Origin: Lineus longissimus
Lineage: Eukaryota; Nemertea; Pilidiophora; Heteronemertea; Lineidae
DNA length: 64,000 nt
Assembly (NCBI RefSeq): GCF_910592395.1
Contig: NC_088316.1
Span: 3,906,001-3,970,000 of the forward strand
Direction: 5' to 3'
In this document: piece by piece, positions 27,854 through 63,157 of the stretch
Position numbering within the stretch: position 1 is the stretch's first letter
Layout of the letters: each line of letters begins with the position of its first letter
Translations under genes and position numbers: made by a program
Notes under the pieces: model-generated
Seen by the model: only the letters and a program-made list of their open reading frames with translations
Told to the model about the DNA's origin: nothing
Database searches by the model: none

Positions 27854-27899
27854 GATGTCTATGCGTAATCCACATAATCCGACTCATGTTACAGAAAGT

Positions 27900-29595
27900 A
27901 TAGCATACCGGTAATCATTTCATATCCAAATATGAAGTATCAATTATGACCCAGTCGGTCGAACGCACTCCACTTATTCATAAATGTATTCCTCTGTGAT
28001 TTTCCTGCAAGTACAAAATACAAATTGGGGTAATTTCTTCCCAATTAAAAACCCTAGAAAAAAAGACAGTGTAACCGTGGCATTTCCGTGAGCATTTTCT
28101 TTTCTCAATTTTTATGAATGCACCATCAGACGCAAACTTCAACGCAAACAAAAGCACTCACTTCAAGTCTATCACCGAGTGAAAAATCGAAAAGTCCTGG
28201 GGACATTGTGCTCACCTGGGAATGATTTAGTGGTACCGGTAGATGGAATGAGACATGTTAAACTGACTTTTTAATATGACAAAATGTGGCACCATCAATG
28301 ACACTTTTAGAGTTTGACCTCTGTGGAATTGATAACTAGGTCAAAATTGACCGAAATTAGGTCAACTTGTACAGTTGAGGAGCACACATTTTGGATGTTT
28401 TCCTCGTGAGGCATCCATTCTCCCGGGCCTCAAGAAGCACTATCCAGGGCAGTCTGCTCGGTAAGTTGGAATACCTGAAAAGATTCTCGGCAATCTGGGG
28501 AATTAATTCTACTGTTCATACCAACAGACATGTCAGATCCTTGAAAAAAATCACTTTGGCATTTGATCAATGTTGCTGATACAAACATCATTACTTTTTA
28601 TCAGTGTCACGACTACTATTGGATATTTTTGCGCAAACTCTGGTAAAAGGATAAGGAGAAAAAGTCATTCATCGGCATGAATGACATGACTGAAGAGATC
28701 ACATTGTCACACAGGATCGGAAAATCATCATCAAAGGTAACGGCCGCTTAAAAAACTTTCGTGACCTTTGCAGTGATGGCATTTGGCCATGTTGGATCAT
28801 GCAGATCAGATGGTCGATCGGATGGACATGGAAAGGGAAGGCGTCACCAAAAAGCATGAAGAAATCATTTTGAGTCGAAATGCCATTTGATTAGCAAAAG
28901 TAAACAATATTTTGAGATATACAAAAGGTCTTATGACGTAGGCATTAAGAAGTTGACTTTCACATGTTACAGTCAAACAGCTTAGGCCTTTAAAAGGGTA
29001 CACTGTTCGTAATTACTGGTGGTCCAGTTAAATAGAAATCCACTAAATACACAATGCCGTAGTGCAGTTATTGTGAATACAAATTTGTTTAAACTTGGTA
29101 TTCATAGTATTTGTATATCAGACTTCATATGGCAATGTTGATATTTATATTTAGTACGTATTTCCGCAATTGGACATTTTAAATTCAATTACAAATTCAA
29201 CATTTTTAATGAACGGCGTAGGCCTTTAATGGTGTGGTGACATCAGGTGAACCATGCACGAATGACAACATACGTCTATCCCATCTATCTCGTCAACAAA
29301 GAATAAATTGATCGATGTCAACCCCCGCTTGCACTGACAATGTCGGTTTATGAACGTGAGCCACATGAGAATTACATTTTCCGGTAGTCAATTAATTAAC
29401 TTGATGACATTTATCCCGTTAACCCTGTTGGATCATGAAGATGGATGTAAAAGGGCCTCTTATTTAGTATGTATGCAACGAAAGGGGGGAGCATTTTGTA
29501 AATTTGAGGCCGATTTTGTACTAGAGGTAGAGCATTAAGGGGGGGGGATTAAAAAGGTGATTTGTGTTTTTTATTCGCCATGACATGTCATATCA
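27900..29595. other. No gene seen
   Basis: A short plus frame at 28391-28579 contains FLVRHPFSR but nothing else of a sulfotransferase. The rest is A/T-rich non-coding sequence. Confidence 0.4.
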
Positions 29596-29599
29596 GTAT

Positions 29600-29786
29600 C
29601 CCCATAGAAAAAGTAACTGGGATCCCGCTGGGACCTAATCGGGATCCCAGTCTTGTCCCGTTAGGAATTATGGTCGGGATTATTTTGGGATATGATCCGG
29701 GATCCCACTCACTTATGAACTGGGATCGCAGGTGGGATCCCATTGATATCCCAGTGGGATCCCACCAGGACATTTTTTCTATGGGG
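29600..29786. mobile_element. Small inverted-repeat element (MITE), 187 bp
   Basis: The ends CCCCATAGAAAAA and TTTTTTCTATGGGG are inverted. The interior is filled with GGGATCCCA-type palindromes, repeated about seven times. Confidence 0.75.
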
Positions 29787-30880
29787 TACGTATGAAAAAG
29801 ATGAGTTATTTACGGTTTCGACATTTTTCTCTCAAATCTTGATAAAGGGAGAGGATAAGCAATGACTATCTTGTTATCACGACGATCTTGATGTTTTTTT
29901 TGGGGGGGGGATTCTTGCGCAGTTTTTTGCTTCGTACGACATTTTGTGAGACCTGGGCCATTTCAATCGCACACAGACCTGGCTGCAATAAGCCATTCAA
30001 GATACTCTAAACCACAAAATTTTTGCGAGCGTTTTATTTCTGCAGATTTCACAAATATATTTAAATTTGCAAAACAAAAAAAAACGCAATAAAAAGTATT
30101 TCGATTGGAAAAAGCGACAGAAATTTGTAATCCGCTAAACAAAGAATCCTCAATATTTTAATTTTTTGTTTGTGAACTGCAGAAAAATAAAATGGCGCAA
30201 TACTTAGGTAGTTATCAAAATGTTCATGAGCTAAAAGTTAAATTTGTTAATCCAGTTGACTCGGCACTTGGCAGCCAGGCACTGGCACAGGCCCAGATCT
30301 ACCCTGTGATTAGCATTCGCCGCATACATGTACAACTGACTCATAGCGTCTACGGGCTTTATCGATTAGCTGAAATATTTTAGACAACAGATGGGTAGGG
30401 TACGTCACTCCCCCTGTTCAAGGAGCTCAAGTGATTATGGGTGCACATTTATGCGAGCACTTCAATTGTCTAGTCCTACTTGTGCTACGAACGTAAACTA
30501 CACGTTTGCCTTCTCTACATGTACTGCAGAGAAATCACTCTACAGATCCGCAGAAATTGACTAAGAACCGTATCAAAGGAAACCTATAGCCAACGCTTAT
30601 AATAATGGGGAGTTTTGAATGGTCCAATTAAAACCTAAGGCGGGAATAAGCTTCCATTGATAAATTTTTGCAGTTTCCAGTTCCCCTCAGGTAGTTGATT
30701 ATGTAGCCAATGAGCTGCATAAGAAGTAAACACCAATTTAGTTATTTTACCACATAAAGACTTGTGCCACGCATGGATCTCTTTAAGGTTTAAAGTTAAA
30801 GTTTTGGGTTTATAGTCTGATATCAACTATGATTGGTTATAATATCATCCCACTTTTAACCCCGGCCTGTCCTGAAACCT
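29787..30880. other. No gene seen
   Basis: Non-coding sequence with a short G run at about 29902-29910. A 63-residue minus frame (30826-30635) matches nothing I know. Confidence 0.4.
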
Positions 30881-30884
30881 TTCA

Positions 30885-31078
30885 GTAGACCACAGATGAG
30901 CTGCTCAACCAGCGCTACAACCTGAGCATTTCTGACCGGTACCCATTTATACACCTGGGTGCAGAGAGGCAAGTAAGACCACGAGACCTGCCTACAGTCT
31001 CACGCCGACAGTGGGGATCGAACCCGGAATCTCTTGACTGCCAGTCAAGAGTCCCAGCCACTACACGAGAGCGGCGCC
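30885..31078 (-). mobile_element. tRNA-derived SINE
   Basis: The minus strand begins GGCGCCGCTCTCGTGTAGTG. It carries the A box TAGTGGCTGGGAC, an anticodon-arm-like hairpin CTCTTGACT-GGC-AGTCAAGAG, and the B box GGGTTCGATCCCC (31024-31012), then runs into a body with TATAAATGGGTACCGG. Enough of the cloverleaf remains to show tRNA descent. Confidence 0.85.
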
Positions 31079-31604
31079 TACGTCATGACAAACACATCAC
31101 AATCATTGCGTCCTATTACTGGACCGGCGCTGGGGTGAGCACCGGATCTTGCACCATAAAGCGCATACCCAGTCTCGCGCCAGGCCCCAGTAACAACGGA
31201 GTCAAGTAGTCGCCAAAAAACTTAAAATAGAACATGAATTTGAAGGTTTCCAATTGTTTTTATCTGTTTTTAGATTTCAACAAGACTGTCATGTGGACTG
31301 ATTACTATGATGCCCAGTTCCAAATTTTAACTTGCATGATAACTGCACTAGGGCAAGATCTAAAATTTCTACCTGTCCCACAAAAAATGAATTGACAGGA
31401 ATGAGCATGGATGGCGTAGACCTTAGTTTAAAAGCACAGATGATACAAATTAATGCCAAGAATGATTGGAACAAAAATGTATGACTGTTGTATGACATAG
31501 AGTAGCTTTCTGCCGACTAAATCAGCTATAAAAAGTTTTGTAACCATAACTGTTTGTTGATATTCTGATGACCTAATTTAGGTGTTATTGGTAATCACAA
31601 GAAA

Positions 31605-34600
31605 TTATTCTGATTGATTTCTGAACATATTGATGAGTTTTTGCCAGTTCCACTGTGGGAGAGGCTGATCCAAGATAACATTGCTGCAAAGAGGGCAGGG
31701 ACAACTTTCACATTTGAAAATTGCAGGAGAGCTCTGTTTATCACTGTGAGGGGCTGAATCACTATCCATCATGTCCATATGAGACAATAAATGCCACCAA
31801 TGAATATTCATAGGTTGGAGGTTCCAGGCCTATCAATTAGACGCGAGTATGTTTTTAACTATCAAGTACATATTTGGAGAGATATTGAAGAAAATATTTG
31901 CTGTGGCAAGTCTACAGATATAAAGAAATTATTTGATGAAAAAAATTAATTTTGAATTTTGCTAATTTGGCAAGAGCAGTGTTTTGAGATTTTTCTGCCA
32001 GTTGGCTGAAAAGAGTGGAAATATCAATTTGTCCATTATCAAAAAATTTCCGTGGTCAACTACCAGTTTACTTTTCACCATTTACTTGCCCGACTGTCCG
32101 GAATATCATATCAAAATTTCAGATCCACTACCCCACACAGTATTTGATGCGTCGCGGTCAGACATGGACAATTTAACTGTTAAAAGGCTTAAAAAACAAT
32201 GGTGATCTTGTCTCATACATTACATCTCTTTCCATGAGGAGTGATAACTGCTCCCCAACTTGCCCCAATGAATGATTGTAAATGGGAGTGATGGGGCTTT
32301 AGTGCATGTAATAGGATAAACATGTTTCTTTTATGCTCAGCATAATATTATTAAGTTCAGCATAAACACAAGCCATTTGTCAGCAAAATCTAACCTCATA
32401 ACATCGTAGCCCCGCTATCAAGAACACCCCTAGGACTGACAAATGGTACCCTTAAATCGTGAGAGGTGTCATGATTACTGAGGTCATATTCAATGGAAAT
32501 TACTAATTTGGGACCAAAGTGGTTTCCTTTGGGAAGAGTGTCCTATCAAAATAGGCTTTGCACTCAAACAATATACTGTATAAATCCACTAGGACACCCT
32601 CGGGACTGACAAGTGTTATCCTTCATAGAGAGGTGATTAGAGAGATCAAATTGAATGGAAACAACTACAGTAGAACCTCTCTATTAAGGACACCCTCGGT
32701 ACTGACAAGTGCTGTCCTTAATAGAGGTGTCCTGATTAGAGAGGTCAAATTGAATGGAAACAATCAATTTGGGACCAAAACTAGTGTCCTTAATAGAGAG
32801 GTTGTCCTTAATAGAGAGGTTGTTCTTGATAGAGAGGTATCCGCTGACAGAGGTTCTACAGTAATTTGGGACCAAAACTATTGTCCTGAATTGTCAAAAG
32901 AGGTTGTCCTTGATAGAGAGGTTGTCCTTGATAGAGAGGTATCCGCTGACAGAGGTTCTACAGTAATTTGGGACCAAAACTATTGTCCTGAATTGTCAAT
33001 AGAGGTTGTCCTTAATAGAGAGGTTGTCCTTGATAGAGAGGTGTCTACTTAGGCAGACTCTAAGTGCTGTACTCATGTCAATCAGTTTGACAGCCTTTTA
33101 AAAACCACACTGACATGACTGACAGGGCAGAATCCTAGCAGTCGTGTTGTCTTATAACTTTGTTCAATTAATTTCACCACTCGACTCCATGAAGCACTGT
33201 ACATTCTCTAATTAGATCACCAATAACTGAAGTGATTTGAACTACTATATGTTACAGTTGTAAAAACTGATGCCTGGAGCAATGAGAGCCCAATTTATTC
33301 TATTCCGAGGGTTCTATCAACAATTTCATTGCATGACATTTTACAAGTTACATGCAAGTACAGTAGAACCTCTCTATTAAGGACACCCTCTGGACTGACA
33401 AGTGCTGTCCTTAATAGAGAGGTGTCCTGATTAGAGAGGTCAAATTGCCATGGAAACACCCAATTTGGGACCAAAAAAGTGTCCTTAATAGAGAGGTTGT
33501 TCTTAATATAATAGAGAGGTTGTTCTTAATAGATAGGTTGTCCTTAATAGAGGTGTCCTCTGAGGGAGGTTCCACTGTATGCACTTGGTTTTAGAACACA
33601 TCACGATTTGTGCAAGAAAGGTTTATTGTTCAAACATATGGTGTAGACAGTGATATAAAACACAACATAATAGACTGTTGTGTGCATGTATTTCAGTTCG
33701 CAATAAAACCATGATTTACTGGTGAAAAACACAAATTCTCTGAAATTAGTTTACCTGCCAGAAAATAGAACATGAGGAGGCATTGGAAAATTGTCATCAT
33801 CAGGTTTTGAGCTTCACTTTTAATTGTGTTTTTCTGCTGCTCTGACCCTGTCCACAAGTCTTGATGATAATTAGTGAGAGAAAAAAAATATGTAAAAAAT
33901 ATGTGTTATGTAAAAGAGATCGACTGTTTTGGTGCAGGCTCAAAATTAGGTGAGGGCCGTGACAAGAACCATGACATCATCATTTAGTGGCCTCACTGCC
34001 TCCTGATTTCACTTTATGTACAGTAGAACCTCTGTTTTAAGGACACCCTCGAGACTGACAAATGTACTCAATAGAGAGGTGTCCTGAATAGAGAGGTGAA
34101 ATTGAAGGGAAACAAGCAATTTGGGACCAAAATTAGTAGCCTTATTAGAGGAGTTGTCCTTAATAGAGAGGTGTCCACTAAGGGAGGTTCCACTCTACTA
34201 AAAGTAAAGATGGCTTGGCCAGCCAACATTACTACCGTTTAAAATCATGCTTTTACTTTTAGGTCAAGGATTTTAGAATAGGTATATCATGAGGTTTCCT
34301 AATGAAACCTTTTCCCGTTATATGTGATGTACATAGCCTTTAAAAATACTAGTGTGGTTCAGCTCGAGTAAATTGGTATAGTAAAAGACCAGTAAATAGG
34401 CTAATGGAAACTTATAGTGAAGATGTAAATCAATAAATGCATGAAGAACAATAAAAAAATGTTCTGTCATTGTCAACAGGAAAAGTCAATCAATAAGTAC
34501 AAAGGATCTGTGACTTTGATACAAAAACTTCCTCAAGTCACCTCAATAAAATACAACTGTATGATGGAGAGCAGAAAGGTCAACTTGACTCACGCTCGGA

Positions 34601-35548
34601 CCATTTTTTTAATGTAACTTGCAGTATTTAGTGGAACATCCCTTAGCGAGAACCTCTCTAATAAGGACACCCTCTCTATTAAGGACACTAGTTTTGGTCC
34701 CAAGTTGGTTGTTTCTATTCTTTTGAATCTCTAATCTGGACACCTCTCTAGTTTAAAGGACAGTACTTTCTACTTATGTGACAGTCCCAAGGGTGTCCTT
34801 AGTAGAGAGGTTCTACTCTACATGTACAGTAGAACCTCCCTTAGCAGACACACTCTGTTAAGGACAACCTCTCTACTAAGGACACTAGTTTTGGTTCCAA
34901 ATTGGTTGTTTCCATTTAATTTGACCTCTGTAATCAGGACACCTCCCTGAAAAGGACAGCATATGCCAGTCCAAGGGTGTCCTTTGTAGGGAAGTTCTAC
35001 TGTATACTCTCATCTCTGCATCTGTGTCATAAAAAGTACCTGCACTAGAAAAATTAGAATTGGCTCTCTGCGTATTCTTCTTTCAAAAAACAACACAAGA
35101 CAGCAAGAGTAATTCATAAAGTGATGGAGGCCCTATTCCACAGATTTATCAAGACACTAGTTAAACTCTTTTTTAAACAAATCCAAATCACCATAGGCTA
35201 GGCTACTAAACTATTCACAATATGCAAAACTCCTAATCATTGTTCAACAAAGACAATTAGTATAAGCCACCCCCTGGGCCGCGCCACCCCCATCAAAATC
35301 GAATTTACTTTCCCTAACAGTTCGCTAATCCAATCTTGTTCGAATATGCTCATACCACACCGGATGACTGCACAGCACGTGGCCATATGCAAATAAGTAA
35401 CGGAGTTCACAAATCTTGAGCCGTCAAAATTAATTAAAATGAAACAAACATTACGAAAACATAACGCACAGACAACACGAATCGCAGAAATATGAAACAT
35501 ACCAAGAACTTTTAATCCTCGTAAAGAAAACAAATATCCAATGTTCAT
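31605..35548 (-). CDS. Candidate three-exon small membrane protein gene divergent from SCOC
   Basis: Three minus-strand segments join in frame: 35548-35503 (start MNIGYLFSLRGLKVL, donor GTATGT), 33859-33755 (acceptor with a T-rich tract and a possible CTAAT branch point, donor GTAAAC) and 31753-31605 (ending RNQSE and a stop). The phases agree (1, 1) and the sum is 99 residues. The middle exon ends in a hydrophobic stretch, MMTIFQCLLMFYFLA, that could span a membrane. The last exon has a Cys-rich patch, KCESCPCPLCSN. The first ATG lies about 440 bases from the SCOC ATG in the opposite orientation, so the two could share a promoter. I do not recognise the protein. The first two exons look better than the third, whose acceptor is weak. 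Confidence 0.3.
32427..33055. mobile_element. Cluster of pogo/Tigger-like miniature elements, with expanded internal units
   Basis: Includes a partial copy at about 32578-32655, a left end ACAGTAGAACCTC at 32667, and several GAGGTTCTACAGTA right ends. The internal unit GTTGTCCTTGATAGAGAG is repeated. Two nearly identical 95-base blocks stand side by side at about 32860-33000. Confidence 0.8.
33359..33581. mobile_element. Pogo/Tigger-like miniature element
   Basis: A complete copy from ACAGTAGAACCTCTC to GAGGTTCCACTGTA, with three internal TTAATAGAGAGGTT units. Confidence 0.85.
34019..34198. mobile_element. Pogo/Tigger-like miniature element
   Basis: A copy from TACAGTAGAACCTCTG to GAGGTTCCACTCTA, with the standard interior. 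Confidence 0.85.
34640..35005. mobile_element. Two pogo/Tigger-like miniature elements end to end
   Basis: The first runs to GTTCTACTCTA at about 34817. The second starts at ACAGTAGAACCTCCC, about 34825, and ends GTTCTACTGTA at about 35003. Confidence 0.8.
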
Positions 35549-35630
35549 GTTACGAGAAATAAGACGTATTTGTGAATCTCATATCGCCGCGAAATGCGAC
35601 CAATGCTGGATTTATTGCGGTCTACTTCCC

Positions 35631-35670
35631 ACTTTCGGTGACGTCATCGTGGTGGTCACGTGGTACACAA
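35631..35670. promoter_or_regulatory. Probable SCOC promoter core: CRE plus E-box
   Basis: A full palindromic cAMP-response element TGACGTCA lies at 35639-35646, followed by the E-box CACGTG at 35657-35662. Both lie about 330-350 bases upstream of the SCOC ATG, in the gap between SCOC and the minus-strand ATG at 35548. CREs bind CREB/ATF factors, and CACGTG binds bHLH-Zip factors such as USF or MITF/TFEB. A TFEB-type site would suit an autophagy gene, but that is inference. Confidence 0.45.
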
Positions 35671-35989
35671 GTCTATGGTAGATTTTCATTTCTGATTTCC
35701 TGGTTTTGATAAAATTCGTCGAAATAATAACACTTTAGAAGTAAATTATTTAGAATTTATACGTTATGTCGATAGAGCTGTACTTTGTGCGTATTCGTAC
35801 CAAGTTTTATAGCGATCGGATGAATAGTGATTGAAATATCTACGTTTTACTTCCAGAAAATTTCCCAATCCGGATTTTGGTGTGTGGATTTTTCCTGGGA
35901 CTTGGGTGTTTTTCTGGAGTCTGGCCAAGTGACTTCGTTGAACCATTTTCCTTTGCCCTGCAGCGGAATAATCACGCCCTCCTGGTTCT

Positions 35990-38900
35990 ATGAGGATGTC
36001 TGATCCTTCCCAAATCAACATGTATAGTGTTCCATTGTCGAGTGACAGTGATTCAGGTGAGTTCTCACGATGTGGTTACAGCGGCAGCGTAACCGGTATT
36101 GTCCAATAAATAATACTGTCATAACAACCAGTGTTCCTTTCCATTCACCTTCCACCTGGGTGCAAGATGTGTATTGTTATGGTCAAATCCAAGTATTGTG
36201 ACAAACTTAATCTTTAAGTTTGCTGCTGGCCTCTTCTGCTTGATATAAAAAGAGGTTTGTATGGAAAGGACAAAACTTGGTCATGACAGTGACTCATCAA
36301 CTTGTCTTAATGTTAATTTAGTCACTGCTACACAGGTAATGGCTCCTTGGCAATAACACTATTGCAGTTTGATGTTGATATTACAGATCTCGATGGCCTA
36401 GTGGTTAAGGCGCCCGCCTCGTGAACGGAAGGTCGAAGGTTCGAGGCCTGCTGGTAACCTCTTTCCGATGCGGCCGGTTGGTTAGCCGCCAGCTTGTTAA
36501 ATATAGGGTACAAACTGCCTTCTCGCCAGGCGCCTGGCATTAGAGATAGGAGTTTGGAAGCAAAGAGCGTCTCATAAGCCAATAAGCTGGCTGGCCCTTT
36601 CATTAGGGGTGACACTATAATAAACAAACTTTACTTTTATAATCGTTCTTCCTCTTTCCAGATGCTCTGGCGCATAATGACTTATCACAAACGAATCAGA
36701 ATGACACGAATCTCAACCACACCATAACACATAGTGAGTAGGAATTGTGCAGTGGTCAACGTGAACCTGTACAGTAGATCCTCTGTATTAAGGACACCCT
36801 GGGGACTGACAAGTACCATCTATTGGAGAGGTCAAATTGAATGGAAACTACCACTTTGGGACCAAAACTAGTGTCCTTAGTAGAGAGGTTGTCCTTGATA
36901 AAGAGGTGTCCCTTAGTGAACACCTCTGTTAGAAGGATATCCTCTCCAATAGCGACAATAATAATCTAAGTTAAGGAATCTTCGGGTGGCTTTCTTGAAT
37001 GAGAAATGTTTTGGCCTTTCTGAAGTTCAAGATTCTTAATCATGTTAATGTATGTTTTCTTGGTATGATTCCTCTCTCCAGCTCTTCAAGTTGGGCAAAA
37101 AGTCCACTCGGCGCATTATGCAGGTACATTTTCTGTGGGGACTGATCCATGAGGTTTACTGTAATTCGATTCTGGCTAAAATAAAGGATTGAACCCTACT
37201 GACTATTATCGTTTATTTCAGGTTTAGATCCTGATGCAAACCCAGATGATGAAGAGGAAAAGCAGAGGCTGATTACACAAGTCATGGAGTTGCAAAATAC
37301 TCTGGATGGTGAGTTTGCTGAAAGCTGGAAACAAAAGTTTTTTAAGTCTATAGTAGAACCTCTCTTTTATGGACATCCTTGGTACTGACAAGTGCAGTCC
37401 TTAATAGGGAGGTGTCCTGATTAGAGAGGTCAAATTGAACGGATTCACCCAATTTGGTACCAAAACTAGTGTCCTTATTAGAGAGGGTGTCCTTAATAGA
37501 GAGGGTGTCCCTAGAGAGGGTGTCCCTAGAGAGGGTGTCCTTGATAGAGAGGGTGTCCTTAATAGAGAGGGTGTCCTTAATAGAGAGGTGTCCCCTAAGA
37601 GAGGTTCCACTGTATATGCTAAGCTATTTCAGCCTTGATGTAATCAATTGAGAAATCCTAAACTTTACCTTATTCATTTCTCCAGATTTATCACAACGGG
37701 TGGATTCTGTCAAGGAGGAAAACCTGAAACTCAAGTCAGAAAACCAGGTGCTTGGCCAGTATATTGAGAATTTAATGGCGGCTAGTAGCGTATTCCAGTC
37801 GACCAGTCCAAAGACGAAAAAGAAGTAGGTACTTGAGGTAAAGGGTATCGGTTCTTCTACTATTAAGCATGCTTGGACAGCTTCAGTCTTGATGTACAGC
37901 ATGGATATTATAAATGTTGTATTCACACGGGCAATGTCAACAGAAATGTATCTGTTTCCCAACCAACTTCCTAATTTACTGAGAAACATGTTGTTTCCCA
38001 ACTTACAGAGACAAATGTGTACTGTTTCCCAACTTACTGAGAAACCGGTTGCTTCCCAACTTACTTAGACACATGTGTATCTGTTTCCCAACTTAACGAG
38101 AAATGTGCTTCCAGTTCCCAACTAAGGGACTTTGCATCAGTTTCCCAACTGACTGAGAAAACAGGTGCATATGATGTAGGCCTCCCAACTTCCTAAGCAG
38201 GAAAGCGAGGGACAATTCTTAAGTGTTCTAACAAAAATGGAAATAAGGCAGATCTCTCCAGGATGATCACGGCTGGCCTGCTGCCTCTACTTTAGATATT
38301 TAGCATGCTTTGCACATTGTTTTGTATAACTAGTAGCATAATGTTTTGATATTGTCTGTAGATTTTAGCATGTGTAGCTCTTTATTTAGCATGTTTAGCC
38401 GATTATTTTCAGAGAGTATCGCTCACTAAGTTGGACTCCAGGCTTGGATTCCTACGCGCGTTCAGTATTGGGTGGAAACCTCATGGCAGCCATACCCGAG
38501 AACAAACCTGAGTAATGGTTTATACATGTGGCATAAACATAACAACCTCTGGAAGTGGGCCTCCTCTTTCGGTGTTCTCTACAAGGCCATTTGTCAGGGC
38601 GGCCTACTTGGAAACTTACCACCCTACCTTGCTCTCGAATTTTGTAAAGCCAAGGATCTCTGTATGGCCTGGCTACCCTACCCTACACTGGCAAAACTTC
38701 TTGAATATCAAAAGTACCACCCTACCTCGTTAAAACCCTGTGGAGAACCCTGCTCTCTGTACAAGGCAATACCTTTAGGAAGTGGTAATTGAAATGTCGT
38801 CTGCTTTGAAAACTTGGGTTGGAATCCTACTGATTTCCATGTCGCGTATAATAATGCCTCTACTCGCTCTCGGAAGTGGTTGTTGAAATGAAATTCTTTC

Positions 38901-52340: not shown

Positions 52341-52842
52341 ACCAGTACAGACACCTTATATATTACACAATATGATAGAAACATTACCAGTACAGACACC
52401 TTATATATTACACAATATGATAGAAACATTACCAGTACAGACACATTATATATTACACAATATGATAGAAACATTACCAGTACAGACACATTATATATTA
52501 CACAATATGATAGAAACATTACCAGTACAGACACCTTATATATTACCCAAATATGATAGAAACATTACCAGTACAGACACCTTAGATATTACCCAAATAT
52601 GATAGAAACATTACCAGTACAGACACCTTATATATTACCCAAATATGATAGAAACATTACCAGTACAGACACCTTATATATTACCCAAATATGATAGAAA
52701 CATTACCAGTACAGACACCTTATATATTACCCAAATATGATAGAAACATTACCAGTACAGACACCTTATATATTACCCAAATATGATAGAAACATTACCA
52801 GTACAGACACCTTATATATTACCCAAATATGATAGAAACATT
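52341..52842. repeat. 45/46-bp tandem array, 11 units in two blocks
   Basis: The unit is ACCAGTACAGACACCTTATA followed by TATTACACAATATGATAGAA and ACATT. The first four units are 45 bases (TTACACAATATG); the last seven are 46 bases (TTACCCAAATATG). Units 3 and 4 share CACATTATA. Confidence 0.97.
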
Positions 52843-54010
52843 ACCTAAAAAACATTTACTGAGTGATAAAATCACGTTGGTTTGTAAAAGATTATATTGC
52901 CATTGCCCCTAAAGATCTGTTCGGCTTTCACCAAAGGCCCTGGAGATCAAAATATCAGTCCTAAAATAAAATCTCGAAATATTAAAATAATATGTGGCTG
53001 TTTACCCAAAATATTGCCTGTCTGGCATCCATCAGTCATGTTGTCAGTCAGAATCTGCCTCTGTCATTTCTGGCCTACTCAATCAGCCTATCTGATCCTA
53101 CTCTGACCAGATTCCAACATCCTTTTAATATTCTATAGATGACAAAATCTCGTGGCTGGCCTATCATTCCCCTATTATCCCTTGTAGTAGTGGCATTTAG
53201 GGGTCTTGTTTTTGAGTGGCAATACTTGTATGCACTTAGAAACTCTTCCGTGACCAGGTTGTTAGAAGCTTATAGTGGTATAAATGTAAATTGGTTGAGG
53301 AAATTGCTGTTTAGAATTACCGAATGTTACAGGAGGGGAGCAATGTACACTTTCAGGGAGGGAAGAGTGCAGGGGAGATTGGTTATACAGTGTGGCCCAA
53401 ATCATCAGAACCTTGTCCAAAAGAGAACCAAAGCATCGGAACCCAGTCTAAAAGATGCCCAAAGCTTCAGAACCCTGTCGAAAAGAGGCCTCAAGGTTCA
53501 TAACCCCATCCAAAAGATGTGGCAGTTGTTGCAGAGGTTGACAGATTGTTGCTTTTTCAGTTTTCCAGTCAAATCTGAAATAAATAGAAGACCTGCATGC
53601 TATTGTTTGTCAGTTTATGTTTGAGTATCCATGACTTGGGATCTGGACATTGTAAAACCACAATTTGCAATTCACTACGCGCTAAAGAACGCGTGGCGTT
53701 GACTCACTTTCGTTCAACCACGGGAAGTAAACTCGCAAAAAATCCTGCCAACTTCTGAGCCGTCAAGTCCTAGGGGAATAAGATGATCTTCTTTGAAGTC
53801 AGAGGCCACTAAAGTGGTATCTAAAAACTGTTCAAAGTTGCCTAAGGTCTACAGGGATGCTTGATGAAGCATGGTAAGCTTTGGGATGGCATTTCTGATG
53901 GAGTTGCATTTGTATTACAAAAACAGTGTACTATTAGGCTGGGGTTCTTCATCATTGGTGTTTTTTCTCTCAAACATGTGAGGGCAATGCTGTTTGGACA
54001 GGAGTGACAT
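52843..54010. other. No recognised gene; one open frame with a short diverged tandem
   Basis: A 161-residue plus frame (53139-53624) is open. Its middle is four diverged 31-bp repeats (GAACCCTGTCCAAAAGAG type, about 53403-53527), and I see no domain. I treat it as non-coding. Confidence 0.4.
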
Positions 54011-54018
54011 TTGGGTAA

Positions 54019-54895
54019 GAAAATGTACCTGCATAATGCGCCGAGTGTACTTTTTGCCCAACTTGAAGAGCTAGAGAGAGGAATCATACCAAGAAAACAT
54101 ACATTAACATGATTATTATTTAAGAATCTTGAACTTCAGAAAGGCCAAAACATTTCTCACTCAAGAAAGCCACCCCAAGATTCCTTAACTTAGATTATTA
54201 TTGTCGCTATTATACACTCGCAAAGCCTCGTCCGCCATGACATTTCTGAGTCCAGCAAAATTCCATATTGGACGACCTTAAACATCCACTATTTGCTATA
54301 TTATGCAACCAAATGTCTTGGCAAAGAAATCAATCCAAAGGAAAATAATGAAACAATTTGTTTTTAATGAAATATACTATAAACTTCATTTTTATTGGAT
54401 TAAAACCTTTTAGGATCCGTTACGACATTTTTTTGGATCCGTTATTGCTTTTTTGGATCCGATACGATGTGATGACTTGAAATCACATGATGTGAATCGA
54501 GTTTACGCTATTGGCCAAGAATATTTGGTAGCATAATATTGGAGAGGGTATCCTTCTAACAGAGGTGTTCACTAAGGGACACCTCTTTATTAATGACAAC
54601 CTCTCTACTACGGACACTAGTTTTGGTCCCTAAATGGTGTTTTCCATTCAATTTGACCTTTCTAATCAGGACACCTCTATTAAGGACAGCACTTGTCAGT
54701 ACCGAGGGTGTCCTTAATAGAGAGGTTCTACTGTAGTTGTTTCCATTCAATTTGATCTCTCCAATCACCTCGCTATAAAGGATAACACTAGTCAGTCCCG
54801 AGGGTGTCCTAGTGAGGTTTATACAGTATATTGTTTGAGTGCAAAGCCTATTTTGATAGGACACTCTTCCCAAAGGAAACCACTTTGGTACCAAG
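54019..54895 (-). repeat. Inverted, internally deleted duplicate of SCOC-region sequence
   Basis: Read on the minus strand, 54895-54670 matches about 32512-32755, and the rest down to 54019 matches about 36835-37135. The junction falls within the shared pogo-like miniature element. About 320 extra bases (about 54214-54540) interrupt the copy next to TCCAATA. Confidence 0.85.
54029..54070 (-). pseudogene. Duplicated copy of SCOC exon 3
   Basis: The 42-base exon is preserved with acceptor TAG and donor GTACAT. It differs from 37082-37123 at one base, a Val codon change from GTC to GTA that is silent. No other SCOC exon is nearby, so it is an orphan exon, but it could still be spliced into a passing transcript. 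Confidence 0.85.
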
Positions 54896-54945
54896 GACAG
54901 CACTAGTCAGTCCGGAGGGTGTCCTTAATAGAGAGGTTCTACTGT
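54550..54945. mobile_element. Pogo/Tigger-like miniature elements (part of the duplicate and the 3' flank of the EctC-like gene)
   Basis: Right ends TAGAGAGGTTCTACTGTA occur at about 54736 and 54944; the second ends just before the stop codon of the EctC-like gene. A TTTATT at 54586-54591 inside the element would give that gene an AATAAA poly(A) signal. Confidence 0.75.
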
Positions 54946-54946
54946 A

Positions 54947-57900
54947 CTAATAACTAGAATAGCCTGAGCCATCTAGTGTGTGCACCTCGTCTCCAACGAT
55001 CGGCGGCGAGAACGTGCACAAACAAATACTGGTCTCTTCTTCTATAGTCATAACATGAGGGTCATGCTTATCCATCACCATCATAGTCCCTTTAACATCT
55101 TCATCTCTCCCGTACGTGTGCTCCGCCCGGTCGTCATCCCAGACGTATTTACCCACGCCCCCAATGTAGTATGCACTTTCCAGTAGGTTCTTGTACTCCA
55201 AATAAGACTGTTTATTGGGATATCCAAGGGTGTTGGAAATAGCCACAGAATAGCCATCTTTCTTTACTAGAAATCGCCTGCTTTCTCCGTTTCCCCACGC
55301 CACGTTCAGGTCAGAGGCAATGACTTCTTTCAAAGATTTGTGGACGTATCTCGGCCTTGAGGTGTTCCCTGTGGCTGGGCAGTACACGACCATCAACCTC
55401 ACTGGCTCTAACACAGTAATGGAACAAGTGGTATATCCTGAATAAAGAACGATTACAAAATAAAGAATAAAGGATAAAGAAAGAATGAAGAGTATTGAAA
55501 GAATAATGAAAATCAAGGATACTGGAAGATTTACGAATAAAGGAGTAATCGTCTCTGTCGCCAACACCGCAATGGAAGAAAAAGAAAAAAGAATGAAGAA
55601 AGTACAGTAGAACCTCCCTTAGCGGACATCTCTCTATTAAGGGCACTAGTTTGGGTCCCAAATTGGTCATTTGTATTCAATTTGACCTCCCTAATCAGGA
55701 CACCTCTCTATTAAGGACAGCACTTGCCAGTCCCGAGGGTGTCCTTTATAGATTGGTTCTGTAAGTAATAAAGAATAAAGAAAGAATATGTAATCAGGAA
55801 TCAGGAATAAGATGACCCATTACATAAAGACTATAGTTGCTTTTAATACACGAGGACGGTTCTAGCCCTCCTCACCTCGAGCCACTTGAAGCCGGATCAC
55901 CTGTAACTGACTTTGCGCTGTCTACACGGAGACGGATCAAATCGCCGGCCCCAGGTCAGTTCAGGCCACTTAAACCACTAACCTGTCGCATGGTGGCGCG
56001 TGTTTTCATGAACTGCTATATACCGCACTACTCGATTTTAGTACCGTGCGCAAAGTGACTCGAAGCCAGATCGGTTCTACACGAGAGATTAAGCGTCTTG
56101 AAGTGGCTCCAACCCGCCTCAAGTGACTCGAGACTGCAGTGCTAACGCGCCTCGGGTCAGGTCACTTGGAGACGGTTCTGATTTTGTTCTACACGGTAAA
56201 AATTATCCTGACCCGCCTCGAGCTGGCTCAAAGCCGGTTCCAACTGTCCTCGTGTAGAAAGGCCTTATGTCTGTTGACTGTGCTTTAAGAGAGACTGGCA
56301 TCATGCCTAGTCTCTGGCATCATGCCTAGTCTCTCTTAAAGCACAGTCAACAGACACCACTATACCCCCTCGCCGAAAGGTAGTGCACTGAAAATGACTG
56401 CATCACACTGCTTTTGACTGAAACCCCCACTGCATATGACTGTCTTAGGCATATCATTTTTTCTTAATGTTTTAAAACCACTGATTTTGACTGAAAGACC
56501 ACTGCAAAGCACTGCCACTTGCATATCATTATGAACGACGTATTTCAAAAACACTGCCTATAGGGCCGTTTAGACGACAGAAAAAAGGCCCGATGAGATC
56601 CGATCGAATCCGAATGCGGTCTAAATTTCCCTGGTGTAAACGCAAACCGATCGGGTCTCATGTGGTCCCATCGGGTCTTCAAGTGGTCCACCTCTTTTGC
56701 TTGTTCCATCGGGGCTAATCCGGATCAAATTTGGTCGTCTCTACGCGATCGGGCCTAATGCGGTCTCATCTGGACTAATTTTTTTACCTACACGCATGAG
56801 TATTGGATATGGTACTTCGGCAATACTTCCTTTCATTATAAACACGTGTATTTTCGTGGGAATTAATGTCCTTTTGATTGTCAGTTTTATAGTATTTTCT
56901 CTTGGCTTATTTTCATTATTCCAGTATGGTGAAGGATAAGTTCACGGACACGGTTGTTTTCGATCTCATACATATTTGGAGTGATCAATCCATTCAGCGG
57001 AAGCTAGACAGCAGCTACCATAAGAATGAGCTTGCCTAGTACCATTATAACCCGCATTGTGGCGCTAAATCGGTGATGCCACCGCGACATCCTGCGGATT
57101 ATTGGTGGAGCCAAAAGAAATTAGTCCACATCAGTCCTCATTGCTGTTAGCGTCTAAATGGGTACATTAAAATGAGACCACATCCGGTCTGGAATGGGGT
57201 TCGATTGGATCGGATCGGAATGCGGTCTTATGCGGTCTTTTTGGAAAGTGTCTAAACGGCCCTTACGACTGAAAGACCACTGATTTCCACTTCTCCAACT
57301 CTGATCGAAACCCGTGGCATTTTCAACATGACTGAAAACCACTGCTTTATGACTGTTGAGATTAAGACTTGATGGCAGTGTAAAGCAGTGGAAATTGCAG
57401 TCAAATTCAGTGTTAAATATCACCCATAATGCAACCTGAGACAGGAAGCTAGTAAGGCTGAAAGGGTGGATGTCGTCCTGGGTGCCGACAAATGGTACCC
57501 AGGTTCGAGATCGACTGGACAATAAGCACCCTGGGTGCCATTACACTAGACAAACAGCACCCAGCTTCTTTTTGCCTGGCTTACGGATCTTAGGGACGAG
57601 GACGTTTCTTGCAATCTCGTTTTATTTCGCGCCGTGGTAATTGCGGCATTAGCAGTGCGCGAAATAAAAAGAACAGATAAACAGAAAAAAATGCGTTTAG
57701 GCCTATGGGTTCTTTATCTCTCTAATGAGATGGAATTGATGAAAGAAAGGTTTTTAGAGCGCGGTATCATGACACGTGACCTCCGTGATCGTGGGGCCAA
57801 CCTCGTTGTAGGTATAGAAAAGTGTAGAAGAAGAAGCTGGGTGCTGTTTGTCTTGTGTAATGGCACCCAGGGTGCTTATTGTCCAGTCGATCTCGAACCT

Positions 57901-60900
57901 GGATACCATTTGTCGGCACCCAGGACGACATCCACCCTTTCAGCGCTAGTAAGTTTGAATTTGATAGTCAAACATGGTAACCGGAAAAACGCCGACCGAC
58001 CGACCGAGCGACTGACGGACTGACCTGCGAACCTACCGTCATATACAGTATCCCTTTCGCTTTCTATAGCACATGTATCTGTGTAGTGCCCAGCGCAATG
58101 GACGTGATGGAGTCCGACGTGTCTGACAGCAGCATCTCCAGTCAATTATACCGGGAAAACGAGCCCACGCGGTAATGAACTGATAACGATACTCTAAAGA
58201 TATGCTTTGTCTACATGGTCAGTGGATATAAAAACATGATTTGGGCCTAATCTATGCACTGTAGTTTTTCTACTCGAGTGTCTCGACCGATGCAATGCAT
58301 GAACTGCAACGCGCAATATGCATTTGTTGTCATTTGAACAGCGCACGTGCGCTTGTTTACAATTTTATTTCACATGACCTGCTGCTGTCCGACACGTCGG
58401 ACTCCATCATGTCCATTGCGCTGGGCACTACACAGATACATGTGCTATAGAGAAGCGAAAGGGATACTGCATATGACGGTAGGTTGGCAGGTCAGTCAGT
58501 CGGTCGGTCGGTCGGTCGGTCGGCGTTTTTCCGGTTACCGTCAAACATTCAAGAAATCATGGTAGCTCTTCATATTTCTCGATATTTACCCGAATTTCAA
58601 TATGAGAAGAGGGGAGTTTTAGTCAGTTTGAATTGGAACACATAAGGAGCCAAATAAATGCAAAAAGGGTAATTTAGACAGACACTGAAGTTGTATTTTC
58701 AGCAAATCAAGAAGGCTGTAGGCCCTATAGGTGTTGTAATGTATGCATACACCGGCAGGCAGAAAATGCATGCTGCATACCGTCTGCAGACTGGGGGTTT
58801 TCTCATGAGTCAATAGAATCTAAGGTTTGGAATTAGGGGACCATATCAGTAGTTGCTTTGCGCCAACTTTTTTTCAAAGTTTGTTTTCTTATACATGTAT
58901 TTGAATTACCTGTGAATCATCTTGCAGGAAGATTATTTTTGGGTGTGCATGACAGATGACGTACTTAATACAGAACATGTATATTGTATCCGCCTGTTGT
59001 GCCTCGTGCGCCTGGTTGATTGACCGGCAAGGTTGGGTTCGTTTCAAAGGGAGAATTTCATGATAAAAAGTGCTGAATGACATGGGTAAATATAATTAAA
59101 GATAACAGAATGAAGAAACCCAGGGAACAGAAAACCATTGTATATCAAACACCCACCTTGACAGTTCTCCTCTGTCTCTTGATGTTAAGTGAAAATACCG
59201 GCCTCTTTGACATTCTAAACAGGTGTTGTTAGGCCAAATAAAAAATGTTTTCAGGCAAATGTTTATTACTACAGTCCTGGTCACAAGATACATCCTAGCT
59301 GATTAGCATCATGTAGGCCCTACGTGCTAAATCCGTGCGAGTCACACATACATGTAGCGTGCCAGTGGATGCACTTGGTTCACAGTTAAAGGAATTTAGG
59401 CCTACACCCCAACTCGTGGTGTATCGCAAAGCCTGTTTGCACAACGGCCTAGATAATCTTTGTTCTTCCGTTTGGCATATACCTGAAATGGCCTCTTATT
59501 TTTTAGTGTGAAAATCACATGGCAACTGTTGAGATGGTCCCCTAATTCCAGATCTTAATTTTAATACAGAAGTTGGCTGAAAGCGACTGCTGATATGGTC
59601 CCCTAATTCCAGACCTTAGATTCTATTGACTCATGAGAAAACCCCCAGTCTGCAGCCGGTATGCAGCATGCATTTTCTGCCCACCGATGCATACACTGCA
59701 AGATATCTGCATGTATCTGCATGCATCTGCTGTAGGCCCTATAGGTGTTGTAATGTATGCATACACTGCAAGATATCTGCATGGGAGCTGCAGTCAACAG
59801 CTGATGTTGTGGGCAACAATACACTCACACTCAGAAACCACAAACTCCCACCCCTTCCTGCTACCTTAATACTTCTGGGGGCTAAACTTTAGAATTACCG
59901 ATCGGATGTTCTTCCGCACTATATAAGTTGTGAATCGGTTTAAAAGAGATGGTTGCGCGTAGCATGTTGCATGTTGACTTACTTATTCATTATTCCGTAT
60001 TCATTCGCGCCTTGGACCTATACTTCCGATCGGGAATTCTAAAGTCGTTCCCTTCTGGGTACTAAATGGGGGCTTACTGGACTTTGCGCAACGAAACGAA
60101 ACGAGCGAAATGGGGGAGCGACTATTATGTTTTACCCCGGTACTCTAGCCTGAAAATTTGTTCGGACCTCGATCGAAGATGGTACGACAAACAATTAATT
60201 AATCAAACCCTTATGAGGTTCATTCATTTGAAGTAGAGAGGGTAACGTACATTGTGCTTGCATGCATTGCAGAGAACGACTTTTGAGTGATGACCCACAC
60301 CCACCCAGGCAGCTGAGACACATGTCTTGTTGGACATGCCTACCGATTTTTACTAAATAAAAGCATAACTTCATCACACTTTTCGGGGTTGAAAATGTAC
60401 TCAAGTAAATTACCAAAATTACATGCCAAATTCGCACATGACCTGTTATTTCTCAAAGCTTGGAAGCTCAAATGTCTGAATGTAATGTATGCGCGTAATG
60501 TATACTCTCAGCAAGCGAATAGTTGTGATCGTCAGTTTTTGATACGAATCGTTTCCTGTATGGCCGTTACAAGCCATTGTCTGAATATGGTGTGAACCTG
60601 TTTACCGTTCAATGCTGCTCCTTGTGACGCTGTACCCGCAAATGTTCAATGAAAAAAATGCTGGATAATGACTTACACGGCTTGTTCGCATCGTAAACAT
60701 AGTGGTATTCGGGTAAACTGAATTGGGTTTGGCCTAATTTTACAACGATTACTCCCCATGTAACCATGATCTAGGATGGACAGGCTGTGTATGATGAATA
60801 GGAAAAGTCACCTAGGGACCGTTGCGTAGAATACGTTTTTGGCGAAATATTGCGCAAAGTCCAGTAAGCCCTAAATGGGGACCTGTTAGCAAAAAAAAAA

Positions 60901-61103
60901 AGGCTTCGGTTTGATAAATCACTCCCATGAGCCGATTTTGGACAATTCTGGATGGACTAGTGGTTAACCCTTTAGCTCCTAGAGATTTTATTTTTAAATA
61001 CCGTGGTTCCTTAGAGCATTTTCACAAAAAATGACATGTATTCGTTTTTAGCTCAGCTGACAAGCTGAGCTATTCATATGAGTAAATGGTAGAATGAATG
61101 TCC

Positions 61104-61134
<31 letters not shown>

Positions 61135-63157
61135 CGTTAAACAGGCACGTTTCAAAACTATGGCGGATAGGCGATAGATTTTCCCTATAAGCCATTTAGA
61201 CCCTTCAGGACTCCTGAATAGACCAAGTGTGGGTCCGGCAGGATTAACAGTTTGGCCACCAGGGGGCAAAAAGCCTAAATCACAAAACAATTTTTTGGCG
61301 CTTTATTCAAGCAGATAGAAGCTTGAAATAAAGTTGAAAAGGACCGCATGCATGTAGGTCTTGAAACTACTAAGAGTAGTTTTGATTGATACTACCAGTT
61401 GGCGTTACTGAGCCAAAATCTGTGTTGACCTAGTTTAAGCTTGATTTGAATTTCCCGCTCTTGTATGACTCTGAAGGTTGTGGGTTCCAATCCCACTTCG
61501 GGTCAATTTTTTTTTTTTTTTAATTTTTACTTTTTTCACTTGTAAATACATTTTCTTTACTTTTTTGAATAATTTGGTGGGCGGCCATCTTGGTTTTTTT
61601 TTTCTATTTTAAAGCCTTTGCTGTATCCAGAGTGACATGAATTTTATGGTTGGTGTACAATAAGCCTCCTTTACATGATATCACATGGGCTTTCTATTTG
61701 ACCTACTTTTCAAGGTCAGCCTGGCTCAGGCACTTAGATTTGACTAATAAGTGGCATATTTGTCACCATTTAAAAGTCTTTTTACTTTGGTATGTTTGCC
61801 TGATATATTGACAAAACTGAGGTTGAAAGAGATCTATCGGGTACTTTCCATGTTCATATATTTCAGCTGAGCGCCAGGCCCTTGGGCCTCTTGTTTGGAA
61901 AAAGAGATAGAAAAACTAAAAGATAATGTATACTACAAGTTGTGTTTATTTTGTTCTATGGAAGGTCCTCTACACATCTGAGGGTTTTTTTCACAAAAAT
62001 GGTCATAGAAGTCGGTCAAATAATATTTCAAATCATGTCTCCTGGACGCCCAGATCCGCCCGACCACGTGTACCCCCACGCAGACGACAAAAAGACGCTA
62101 AAATAATCACAGCATGGACCATGTACATCATAGCAGTGTTTCAACACATAAACCAATGATCAATGCACGTAGCAGTGCTGCAATACATCTACTATGTAGT
62201 GCTTAGTGGTTTTGCAAGTGACCCTTATAGGCCCTTTTCCAGACCCCCTCCTTCCTCAATTCCTCCTCCAATATCTAAGTCTGGACCTCCAAAGTCATCA
62301 ACACAACTATCTGAATTGTCGCTGTCTAAATCCAGCTGCTGTAACACATCGTCGACTCCAAAATAAGCCATTGTCCTGCCACACAATAGCTCCACAATGG
62401 CGTGATTTGCAAAATGTCAACAAACCTTGGTCCCAAACTTCAACTGAAAATTACACACTATCGATACACAGCAACATGATAAAAACTTGCATGCATTCAA
62501 TGCAGTATACTTCCTGGTACCTGAAAATGAGGTTGGTCTCACTCCACAGTTCCCATGTATTTTTCCATTTATGATTTATGGGGTCGGGTGGTTGTGGGCA
62601 TCCAGTGAGAAACGGGCAGGGCGGTTCCGGGGGTCTAGGAGCTAAAGGGTTAAGGCGCCCACCTTGTAACTGGAAGGTCGAAGGTTCGAGGCCTGCTGGT
62701 CACCTCCTTCCAATGCAGCCGGTTGGTTAGCCGCCAGCTAGTTAAATATAGGGTACAAACGGCCTTCTCGCCAGGCATTAGAGATAGGAGTTTGTAAGTA
62801 TAAAGAGTGTCTCATAACCCGAAAGCTGGCTGGCCCTTTCATTAGGGGTGACACTAATTAATTATATTATTATAATAAACAAAAACTTCACGTACCAGGC
62901 ATTGCCAAGAAGTCATCGGCTTCAAGCTTTCTGGCAGATTCACCTTCGAACTCGACGGATATTTTCCCAGCTATACAGTAGTAGATGTGATCCGTGTTTT
63001 CGAATGCAGGTGCGAGTTTCCCCTTGTAGTGTTCAGGCAGCCTGATCTCGTAGATGATGTGGCCCATCCCATCTTCTAAAGGCACCAGGCAGTACCCTTC
63101 CATCCCCGATGACCCCACGGGAGACGGCTGGAGCGTGGAAATCGTTCGAACCTTCAT
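54947..63157 (-). CDS. Tandem ectoine-synthase-like (EctC) double-cupin protein, two exons
   Basis: Exon 1 is 63157-62896 and exon 2 is 55437-54947 on the minus strand. The donor GTACGTGA and the acceptor TTCTTTATTCAG join in phase 1 and give 250 residues. The join restores a continuous cupin strand pattern (DDFLAMPG to YTTCSITVLEP), so no exon seems to be missing. Residues 1-109 form a first EctC-type cupin starting MKVRTI. Residues 117-250 form a second one containing SRRFLVKKDG, YKNLLESAYYI, DKHDPH, LCTFSPP and GDEVH, in the order found in bacterial L-ectoine synthase. EctC cyclises N-gamma-acetyl-diaminobutyrate to the osmolyte ectoine using an iron bound by Glu, Tyr and His (E57, Y85, H93 in the Paenibacillus enzyme). 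Domain 2 keeps Glu174 and His215 but has Met207 at the Tyr position; it also keeps Cys228, Phe230, Glu238 and His240. Domain 1 lacks all three ligands. Another in-frame ATG at 63217 would add 20 residues. Homology is clear; activity is uncertain. Confidence 0.85.
55603..55760. mobile_element. Pogo/Tigger-like miniature element in the EctC-like gene intron
   Basis: From ACAGTAGAACCTCCC to GATTGGTTCTGTAA. The right end is decayed. Confidence 0.7.
55839..56264. mobile_element. Inverted-repeat element, about 426 bp
   Basis: Left GCTTTTAATACACGAGGAC and inverted right GGCCTTTCTACACGAGGAC match. The interior is full of CTCGAG and GCCACTTGAAGCCGG words. Confidence 0.7.
56268..56356. repeat. Perfect 29-base inverted repeat with a 31-base loop
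   Basis: Arms TGTCTGTTGACTGTGCTTTA plus AGAGAGACT are exact reverse complements. The loop holds GGCATCATGCC twice. It begins 3 bases after the element at 55839-56264 ends. Confidence 0.97.
56562..57263. mobile_element. Inverted-repeat element, about 702 bp
   Basis: The ends AGGGCCGTTTAGAC and GTCTAAACGGCCCT are inverted, followed inward by GATCCGAT and GAATGCGGTCT words on both sides. The host sequence around it is a CACTG/GACTGAAA-rich repeat. Confidence 0.8.
57451..57950. repeat. Foldback with about 120-base arms
   Basis: Arms 57451-57570 and 57830-57950 match closely, for example GGTTCGAGATCGACTGGACA inverted in the right arm. The loop of about 260 bases is unrelated. Confidence 0.9.
57974..58540. 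repeat. Foldback with about 160-base arms containing a GACC/GGTC microsatellite
   Basis: Arms 57974-58133 and 58381-58540 pair, including GTGTAGTGCCCAGCGCAATG and its complement. The right arm has a longer (GGTC)n run than the left. Confidence 0.9.
58741..59696. repeat. Foldback with about 125-base arms
   Basis: Arms 58741-58869 and 59571-59696 pair, including TTGACTCATGAGAAAACCCC in the right arm. CTGTAGGCCCTATAGGTGTT also occurs in direct orientation at about 58717 and 59730, outside the pairing. Confidence 0.85.
59770..60949. other. Intron sequence, nothing recognised
   Basis: Unique-looking non-coding sequence within the EctC-like gene intron. Confidence 0.4.
60968..62649. mobile_element. 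PiggyBac-like non-autonomous DNA transposon, 1,682 bp
   Basis: Perfect 16-base terminal inverted repeats CCCTTTAGCTCCTAGA sit at both ends and are flanked by TTAA (60964-60967 and 62650-62653). A TTAA duplication with ends beginning CCC is the piggyBac signature. The SINE copy at 36388 has a single TTAA at this place and so serves as the empty site. I see no transposase frame. Confidence 0.85.
61045..61895 (+). mobile_element. Helentron/HINE-like element nested in the piggyBac-like element
   Basis: The left end is TTTTTAGCTCAGCTGA and the right end is TCAGCTGAGC (61863-61872), so the subterminal repeats are inverted. The right end is followed by a hairpin, AGGCCCTTGGGCCT (61876-61889), and the end CTTGTTT. 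A (GTCT)n microsatellite at about 61101-61132 follows the left end. Near 61475-61505 there is a Pol III B-box-like GGTTCCAATCC followed by a T run. The layout matches the pearl/HINE (Helentron-associated) plan; the class is inference. Confidence 0.6.

Follow-up and report, generated by a model that had tools for sequence, protein, structure and literature searches.

How does an animal come to carry a gene for two ectoine synthase-like cupins in a single chain, and what might such a protein do? This question is raised by a gene on the minus strand of a 64,000-nucleotide stretch of the bootlace worm (Lineus longissimus) genome (assembly GCF_910592395.1, contig NC_088316.1, positions 3,906,001 to 3,970,000), referred to here as the window. 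The reading that we favour, at a probability of roughly 0.6, is that the gene encodes a nemertean tandem EctC-like bicupin that was acquired horizontally as a pre-fused bacterial gene, received its intron later and was repurposed as a small-molecule cyclase or binder.

The gene model has two coding exons, with most of domain 1 in the first and all of domain 2 in the second:

62896..63157, minus strand: coding exon 1, from Met1 to the first base of codon 88, with most of domain 1
55438..62895, minus strand: intron of 7,458 bases, GT...AG, holding repeats present elsewhere in the window
54947..55437, minus strand: coding exon 2, stop included, with the remainder of domain 1, the linker and domain 2
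54965..55339, minus strand: domain 2 (residues 121-245), the PF06339 match

Joined in phase across GT-AG ends, the exons give 753 nt encoding 250 residues, as the first-pass annotation of this DNA had proposed, and a scan covering a small range of splice ends yielded a single combination with an in-frame GT-AG intron. An independent NCBI gene model for Lineus longissimus, LOC135493972, encodes the identical product (100% identity, 100% coverage of the 250 residues), and NCBI places it on a 20.5-Mb sequence. An exon-by-exon profile search of the Lineus assembly (391,118,348 bases) found one PF06339 locus, and this profile matched in none of the 14 control genomes. The exons have GC contents of 0.52 and 0.48, slightly above the window mean of 0.41. 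Because repeats within the 7.46-kb intron turn up again in other parts of the window, one of them a 131-base unit present several times in the left flank, the gene belongs to the worm and does not come from a stray bacterial contig. Contamination or an assembly artefact, in favour of which we found no point, was rejected on the basis of these shared repeats, and the repeat-rich intron, the placement on a 20.5-Mb sequence and the Hi-C scaffolding of the published 391-Mb genome (PMC8593623) leave it with practically no probability.

To which family does each half belong? On its profile score, domain 2 is clearly a member of the ectoine synthase family, reaching 81.9 bits against PF06339, above the cut-off of 27. 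The worm domain 1 taken alone has no match to PF06339 at E<=1 and matches generic cupins only, the best being Cupin_3 with 24.2 bits. The first domains of bacterial proteins with the same architecture, described below, do match PF06339 in all five cases tested (25.0-29.0 bits, with three exceeding the cut-off); for one of them, L016, the generic Cupin_2 has a slight lead over PF06339. The worm domain 1 in turn matches a domain-1 profile of the other double-cupin proteins ('doubles') with 47.3 bits, the top score of 200 shuffles being 4.5; on the profile of single-domain proteins it scores 8.5 bits, and on the domain-2 profile it lies outside the five best rows. Since the domain 1s of the bacterial orthologues match PF06339 and the worm domain 1 matches their profile, domain 1 is, by this chain of profile matches, also of the ectoine synthase family, but only through bacterial intermediates. 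The first-pass view of two EctC-family cupins in one chain is thus upheld.

The whole worm protein scores 86.2 bits against the NCBIfam ectoine synthase model NF009806, below its cut-off of 128. AlphaFold2 models the protein with a mean predicted local distance difference test score (pLDDT) of 89.5 and a predicted template modelling score (pTM) of 0.89. Among the structure matches listed, two-domain bicupins including 4e2q and 1sfn are 15-16% identical to the worm protein; EctC chains are absent from the 50 matches listed, which is no argument against EctC because the list is biased towards chains with two domains. Membership among the (S)-ureidoglycine aminohydrolases was rejected, as the fold alone is in common and the NCBIfam ura-cupin model TIGR03214 gives 13.5 bits, below its cut-off of 200.

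The tandem architecture is not an animal invention, as the same double cupin of ~245 residues exists in bacteria. A profile scan of genome contigs (alignment A1) matched 474 stretches, 437 of which encode relatives, and among the best 80 of 437 that were retained, ten (L007-L016) are double cupins that match over both domains. By their titles, seven of these loci are from Stappia and the others from the Rhodobacteraceae metagenome-assembled genome (MAG) SP118, Mesorhizobium sp. Root554 and a Salinarimonadaceae MAG. With the starts chosen in this analysis the bacterial doubles are 241-247 residues long, and the seven that were aligned match the worm protein over its full length, with 30-34% of residues identical; the SP118 copy (L012) is identical to a Stappia copy at 238 of 245 residues. 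Because several doubles belong to one genus, the number of sequences does not equal the number of independent lineages. In the open-licence literature searched, titles and abstract openings mention no tandem ectoine synthase bicupin.

The first protein searches returned two matches for the 250-residue query and one for domain 2 alone. A profile protein search returned 302 proteins, the best 120 of which were listed and P0001-P0032 and a few others inspected. Among the matches listed, P0003-P0032 are double-length proteins or fragments of such, mostly from Logan, ENA or JGI assemblies without a taxon, those named being Stappia. The closest relative of the worm protein among the matches listed is P0002 (149 residues, on 1,325 bases), which is 76% identical over domain 2 and starts at a Met just within the part encoded by exon 2, as expected for the genomic exon 2 of another nemertean. 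Lineus and P0002 are all the worm-type sequences found by these searches, whose sensitivity is limited, and 'worm sequences' in the counts below means these two for domain 2 and a single sequence for domain 1. Left out were L038 and L061 (unclear frame) from the single-domain set, P0025 (domain 1 out of frame) from the doubles, P0029 (a fragment) from the domain-1 sets and P0032 (a fragment) from the domain-1 rows of the 66-row tree.

In a domain-2 tree of 88 rows, reduced from 115 by removing rows >88% identical, the worms and 26 non-worm doubles form one clade (100/100). This clade nests within single-domain proteins carrying a WGNG block (98/80), apart from the five canonical EctCs (100/98), and within it the worms adjoin P0030 (95/71). 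In a 66-row tree, all 29 domain 1s used, including that of the worm, form one clade and all 14 domain 2s used form another (100/99 each), with the domain 2s grouping with some single-domain proteins rather than with the domain 1s (92/77). Because the worm domain 1 groups with the domain 1s and the worm domain 2 with the domain 2s of other doubles, the trees would most simply be explained by a single fusion event that took place before the worm gene existed. Alignment of domain 1 by hhalign gives 99.3% for single-domain EctC-like proteins, 98.9% for canonical EctC and 74.8% for domain 2. Since domain 1 is nearer to single-domain and canonical EctC than to domain 2, and domain 2 lies with some single-domain proteins, the halves may descend from two already different EctC-like genes that were joined, or from a duplication with fast divergence of domain 1.

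Judged by these relationships, the worm gene very probably came from bacteria and was transferred ready-fused, with the direction, number, donor and date of transfer being matters that we infer. The bacterial origin suggested in the first-pass annotation is therefore likely, as the clade of doubles lies within bacterial single-domain proteins, while duplication and fusion within the animal lineage are contradicted by a fusion that is older, is present in bacteria and has its matching halves clustered in the trees.

What the protein might do depends on how much of the active site is left. In EctC of P. lautus, iron is reported to be bound via Glu57, Tyr84 and His92, and the substrate via Trp21, Arg25, Asn38, Thr40, Tyr52 and Glu57 (PMC6344544). 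With residue equivalences taken as positions on one common alignment, the iron ligands fall in domain 2 of the worm at these codons:

55178..55180, minus strand: Glu174, equivalent to iron ligand Glu57 of P. lautus EctC; kept
55079..55081, minus strand: Met207, equivalent to iron ligand Tyr84; lost, and Phe in 30/30 non-worm doubles
55055..55057, minus strand: His215, equivalent to iron ligand His92; kept

The Glu/Tyr/His iron site of EctC thus survives in part, with Glu174 and His215 in place and Tyr replaced by Met207. All three ligands are intact in 5/5 canonical and 78/78 orphan single-domain proteins. The domain 2s of the non-worm doubles carry Glu, Phe and His (30/30 at each position), and those of both worm sequences Glu, Met and His. 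The equivalent of His55, likewise intact in 5/5 canonical and 78/78 orphan proteins, is Leu or Gln in the two worm domain 2s, while the equivalents of Ser23, Arg25, Thr40, Tyr52 and Phe106 are kept in both. The Asn38 column is uninformative, as the five canonical proteins have His at this position. Relative to EctC, the WGNG block has its Trp shifted, and a displaced Trp has been described for some orphan EctCs (PMC6344544). In domain 1, Glu57, Tyr84 and His92 each occur in 0/29 non-worm doubles, and the worm has His, Leu and Cys. Because all three iron ligands are replaced, domain 1 is probably no longer catalytic, in accordance with the earlier proposal that it had become structural.

Most of the bacterial copies stand next to biosynthetic genes. 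In 8/10 double loci (L009-L016) the double cupin is followed by three same-strand genes that cluster by BLAST. By profile, in two of these eight loci (L011 and L009), the three encode a Lys/Orn N-monooxygenase, a non-ribosomal peptide synthetase (NRPS)-independent siderophore (NIS) synthetase with IucA/IucC and FhuF domains, and a WelO5-like iron/2-oxoglutarate (Fe/2OG) oxygenase. The nearest NCBIfam model for the N-monooxygenase of L011 is histamine N-monooxygenase, below cut-off. Past the three genes lies a gene for a major facilitator superfamily exporter on the opposite strand, recognised by profile in L011 and by BLAST clustering in six more loci. Gene calling in the bacterial loci took account of GC content at third codon positions. 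Our label 'siderophore-type' rests on the predicted IucA/IucC and N-monooxygenase families.

The single-domain relatives were sampled on plasmids, where domain 1 had no match and a tblastn search with domain 2 gave 116 records. Fifteen were opened, comprising five ectABC loci and ten orphan loci, two of the latter without annotation. In 5/5 canonical loci opened, ectA and ectB adjoin ectC, the EctC being 26.6-32.5% identical to domain 2. Seven of the eight annotated orphan WGNG loci adjoin genes for adenylation enzymes, carrier proteins, NRPS, polyketide synthase, acyl-CoA dehydrogenase, transglutaminase, Trp-pathway-like proteins or halogenase, and the eighth has a carboxylase-like gene, transposase pieces and a lysine aminomutase as neighbours. 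Because natural-product genes adjoin in 7/8 annotated loci opened, this suggests that the orphan WGNG 'ectoine synthases' (L001-L006, L092 and L094) serve natural-product tailoring rather than osmolyte synthesis.

The worm appears to have the cupin without its bacterial siderophore-type partners. In exon-by-exon searches, which split genes could escape, PF04183 (IucA/IucC) has no match in the worm genome, with 2/14 controls matching (E. coli and Haloferax), and PF13434 (N-monooxygenase) has none either, with 12/14 controls matching. For PF22814 there were no matches in the worm genome, and none in the controls.

EctC is a homodimer of identical cupins. We propose that an already fused bacterial gene, of the type that now stands beside siderophore-type genes in Stappia and Mesorhizobium, moved to a nemertean and gained a spliceosomal intron after the transfer. 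Within the fused pair, domain 1 would be a dead scaffold that helps to shape the pocket or its lid, and domain 2 would be the sole working cupin. Because the equivalents of Ser23, Arg25, Thr40, Tyr52, Glu57, His92 and Phe106 are retained, domain 2 would most likely bind an acylated diamine or amino-acid amide and promote intramolecular ring closure with loss of water, as a cyclase that forms an amidine or imine. The change in the metal site would suggest that the substrate is not the ectoine precursor, and the worm protein would act outside the bacterial pathway. From the residues kept, domain 2 is probably still enzymatic; ring-closing chemistry specifically is a more tentative suggestion, somewhat short of even odds. 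Overall, we infer that, rather than making ectoine, the protein has been repurposed to cyclise or bind a small molecule. A bolder version, which we regard as rather unlikely, is that the worm lineage domesticated a siderophore or natural-product tailoring enzyme with a pre-fused dead domain, and that this enzyme closes a ring in an animal-made molecule for defence, metal handling or stress, using a Glu/Met/His metal site. Such a site is not described for ectoine synthases in the portions of the literature on them that were consulted.

Several results weigh against the transfer and repurposing of a pre-fused bacterial gene. An approximately unbiased (AU) test does not reject a tree that makes the worms the sister group of the remaining doubles (p 0.43), which bears on the direction of transfer, and constraining the worms with single-domain proteins gives p 0.032 in an unclean test, as the constraint also pushed the doubles to the canonical side. 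The worm domain-1 branch is very long (5.03), making its placement inside the domain-1 clade unsure, and most doubles, including the nearest, P0030, come without a named source. The siderophore-type gene order is known from two lineages (7/10 loci are Stappia and an eighth, L012, is Stappia-like); L008 has only the oxygenase of that set beside its double cupin, and the double of L007 adjoins an rsmB-like gene, its contig holding no siderophore-type partners. Moreover, catalysis may be lost along with the Tyr ligand, since the Tyr84Ala variant of P. lautus EctC retains 15.1% activity (PMC6344544). The p of 0.43, together with the listing of PF06339 for two corals, Seriatopora and Favites (PMC11639872), would fit an old eukaryotic or animal gene that passed from eukaryotes to bacteria or was widely lost among animals. 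We consider this unlikely, as the clade of doubles lies within bacterial single-domain proteins with 98/80 support and its named members are bacterial except Lineus, which is also the only named animal among the best 120 of 302 matches, most of those rows being nameless. A duplication and fusion within the animal lineage, starting from a single transferred ectC, has nothing for it beyond the presence of the tandem in the worm; it was rejected because matching halves cluster in both trees, worm domain 1 with domain 1s and worm domain 2 with domain 2s of other doubles, with full support each, and is very improbable.

With regard to function, the protein could instead be a non-enzymatic bicupin that binds small molecules or regulates, its metal site lost partly or wholly in the two halves and its fold only binding a metabolite. 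Domain 1 without any of the three ligands, domain 2 without Tyr and a worm domain 2 also lacking His55 (L/Q) are what would be expected of such a protein, but Glu174, His215 and the five further pocket residues are kept in both worm sequences, and the bacterial copies stand among biosynthetic enzymes in 8/10 loci; we therefore give this reading a minor share of the probability. A true animal ectoine synthase (EC 4.2.1.108) making an osmolyte is less probable again, and clearly unlikely. The PF06339 score speaks for it, as do reports of EctC-like genes from Branchiostoma and Saccoglossus (PMC5924519, PMC5796728) and an orphan EctC of Pseudomonas syringae that gave ectoine in a Halomonas elongata ectC mutant, a dataset that the review describing it calls not yet conclusive (PMC5924519). 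On the other side, the NF009806 score lies below its cut-off, the tree position is outside the five ectABC EctCs, and the Tyr84 and His55 equivalents, intact in every canonical and orphan protein compared, are replaced. The osmolyte role envisaged in the first-pass annotation is thus not borne out: ectoine synthesis by the worm protein is unlikely because of the orphan WGNG grouping, the siderophore-type neighbours in 8/10 bacterial loci and the Met at the Tyr ligand position of domain 2. A repurposed cyclase or binder of bacterial origin is what we retain.

Some further observations concern phages and the repeats of the window. Five phage records appeared in the search, four of them annotated as ParB-like or as EctC/ParB fusions (MN313256.1, KJ567043.1, NC_026590.1 and MK016501.1); the ParB-annotated phage proteins match domain 2 at ~31% identity, so that fusions of EctC-like cupins with ParB-like domains may exist in phages as well. 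A unit of 18 bases resembling TGTCCTTAATAGAGAGGT occurs, in tandem arrays and within longer repeats, in the intron and at other places in the window (27400-37604, 54601-54940 and 55630-55760). At 57480-57930 in the intron, arms of ~90 bases each that look by eye like an inverted repeat surround ~250 bases, giving a foldback-like appearance or that of a miniature inverted-repeat transposable element (MITE). Long tandem arrays in the window lie at 4779-6174 (period 232), 8598-9455 (period 57), 14341-15347 (period 51), 19372-20168 (period 30) and 52341-52845 (period 46).

These results define a tandem EctC-like family by a signature, namely a domain 1 without iron ligands, a domain 2 without the Tyr ligand and siderophore-type neighbours in 8/10 loci, and this family is carried by an animal. 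Where databases give it a name, that name is plain 'ectoine synthase'. A review notes that EctC may be taken as the diagnostic enzyme of ectoine producers, acknowledges that the function of orphan EctCs is unresolved and warns that they need a neighbourhood check (PMC5924519). The worm gene is a case in which an EctC-like match, the more so because the host is an animal, should not be taken for ectoine production, and the conserved gene set with an N-hydroxylase, a NIS synthetase and an Fe/2OG oxygenase offers a concrete handle on the role of orphan EctC-type proteins.

Among known systems, the doubles of Stappia stellulata (P0004/L008), Mesorhizobium sp. Root554 (L009) and the Salinarimonadaceae MAG (L007) resemble the worm protein. 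They too are ~245 residues long and consist of two EctC-family cupins, the first with no iron ligands and the second lacking the Tyr ligand, and they share its YVW motif and carry SSY at the C-terminus. Unlike the worm, the bacterial doubles have Phe rather than Met at the Tyr84 position, keep His55 and stand next to siderophore-type genes in 8/10 loci, at 30-34% identity. Orphan EctC-type proteins, which appear to correspond to groups 2/3 in the scheme of Czech et al. (2018), share with worm domain 2 the WGNGxSRR block, the shifted Trp and ~32-44% identity, but have a single domain with Glu/Tyr/His intact (78/78). Canonical EctC (PF06339; PDB 5onm/5ono) has the cupin fold, the Pfam family and the kept Glu57 and His92 in common with the worm protein; in contrast, it is a single-domain protein, 26.6-32.5% identical to domain 2, with ligands intact and ectA/ectB adjacent in 5/5 cases. 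With (S)-ureidoglycine aminohydrolase and other bicupins (4e2q, 1sfn), the worm protein shares the fold only. The EctC-like genes of Branchiostoma and Saccoglossus, for which two reviews credit Harding et al. (PMC5924519, PMC5796728), and those of the corals resemble the Lineus gene in being EctC-related and in having animal hosts.
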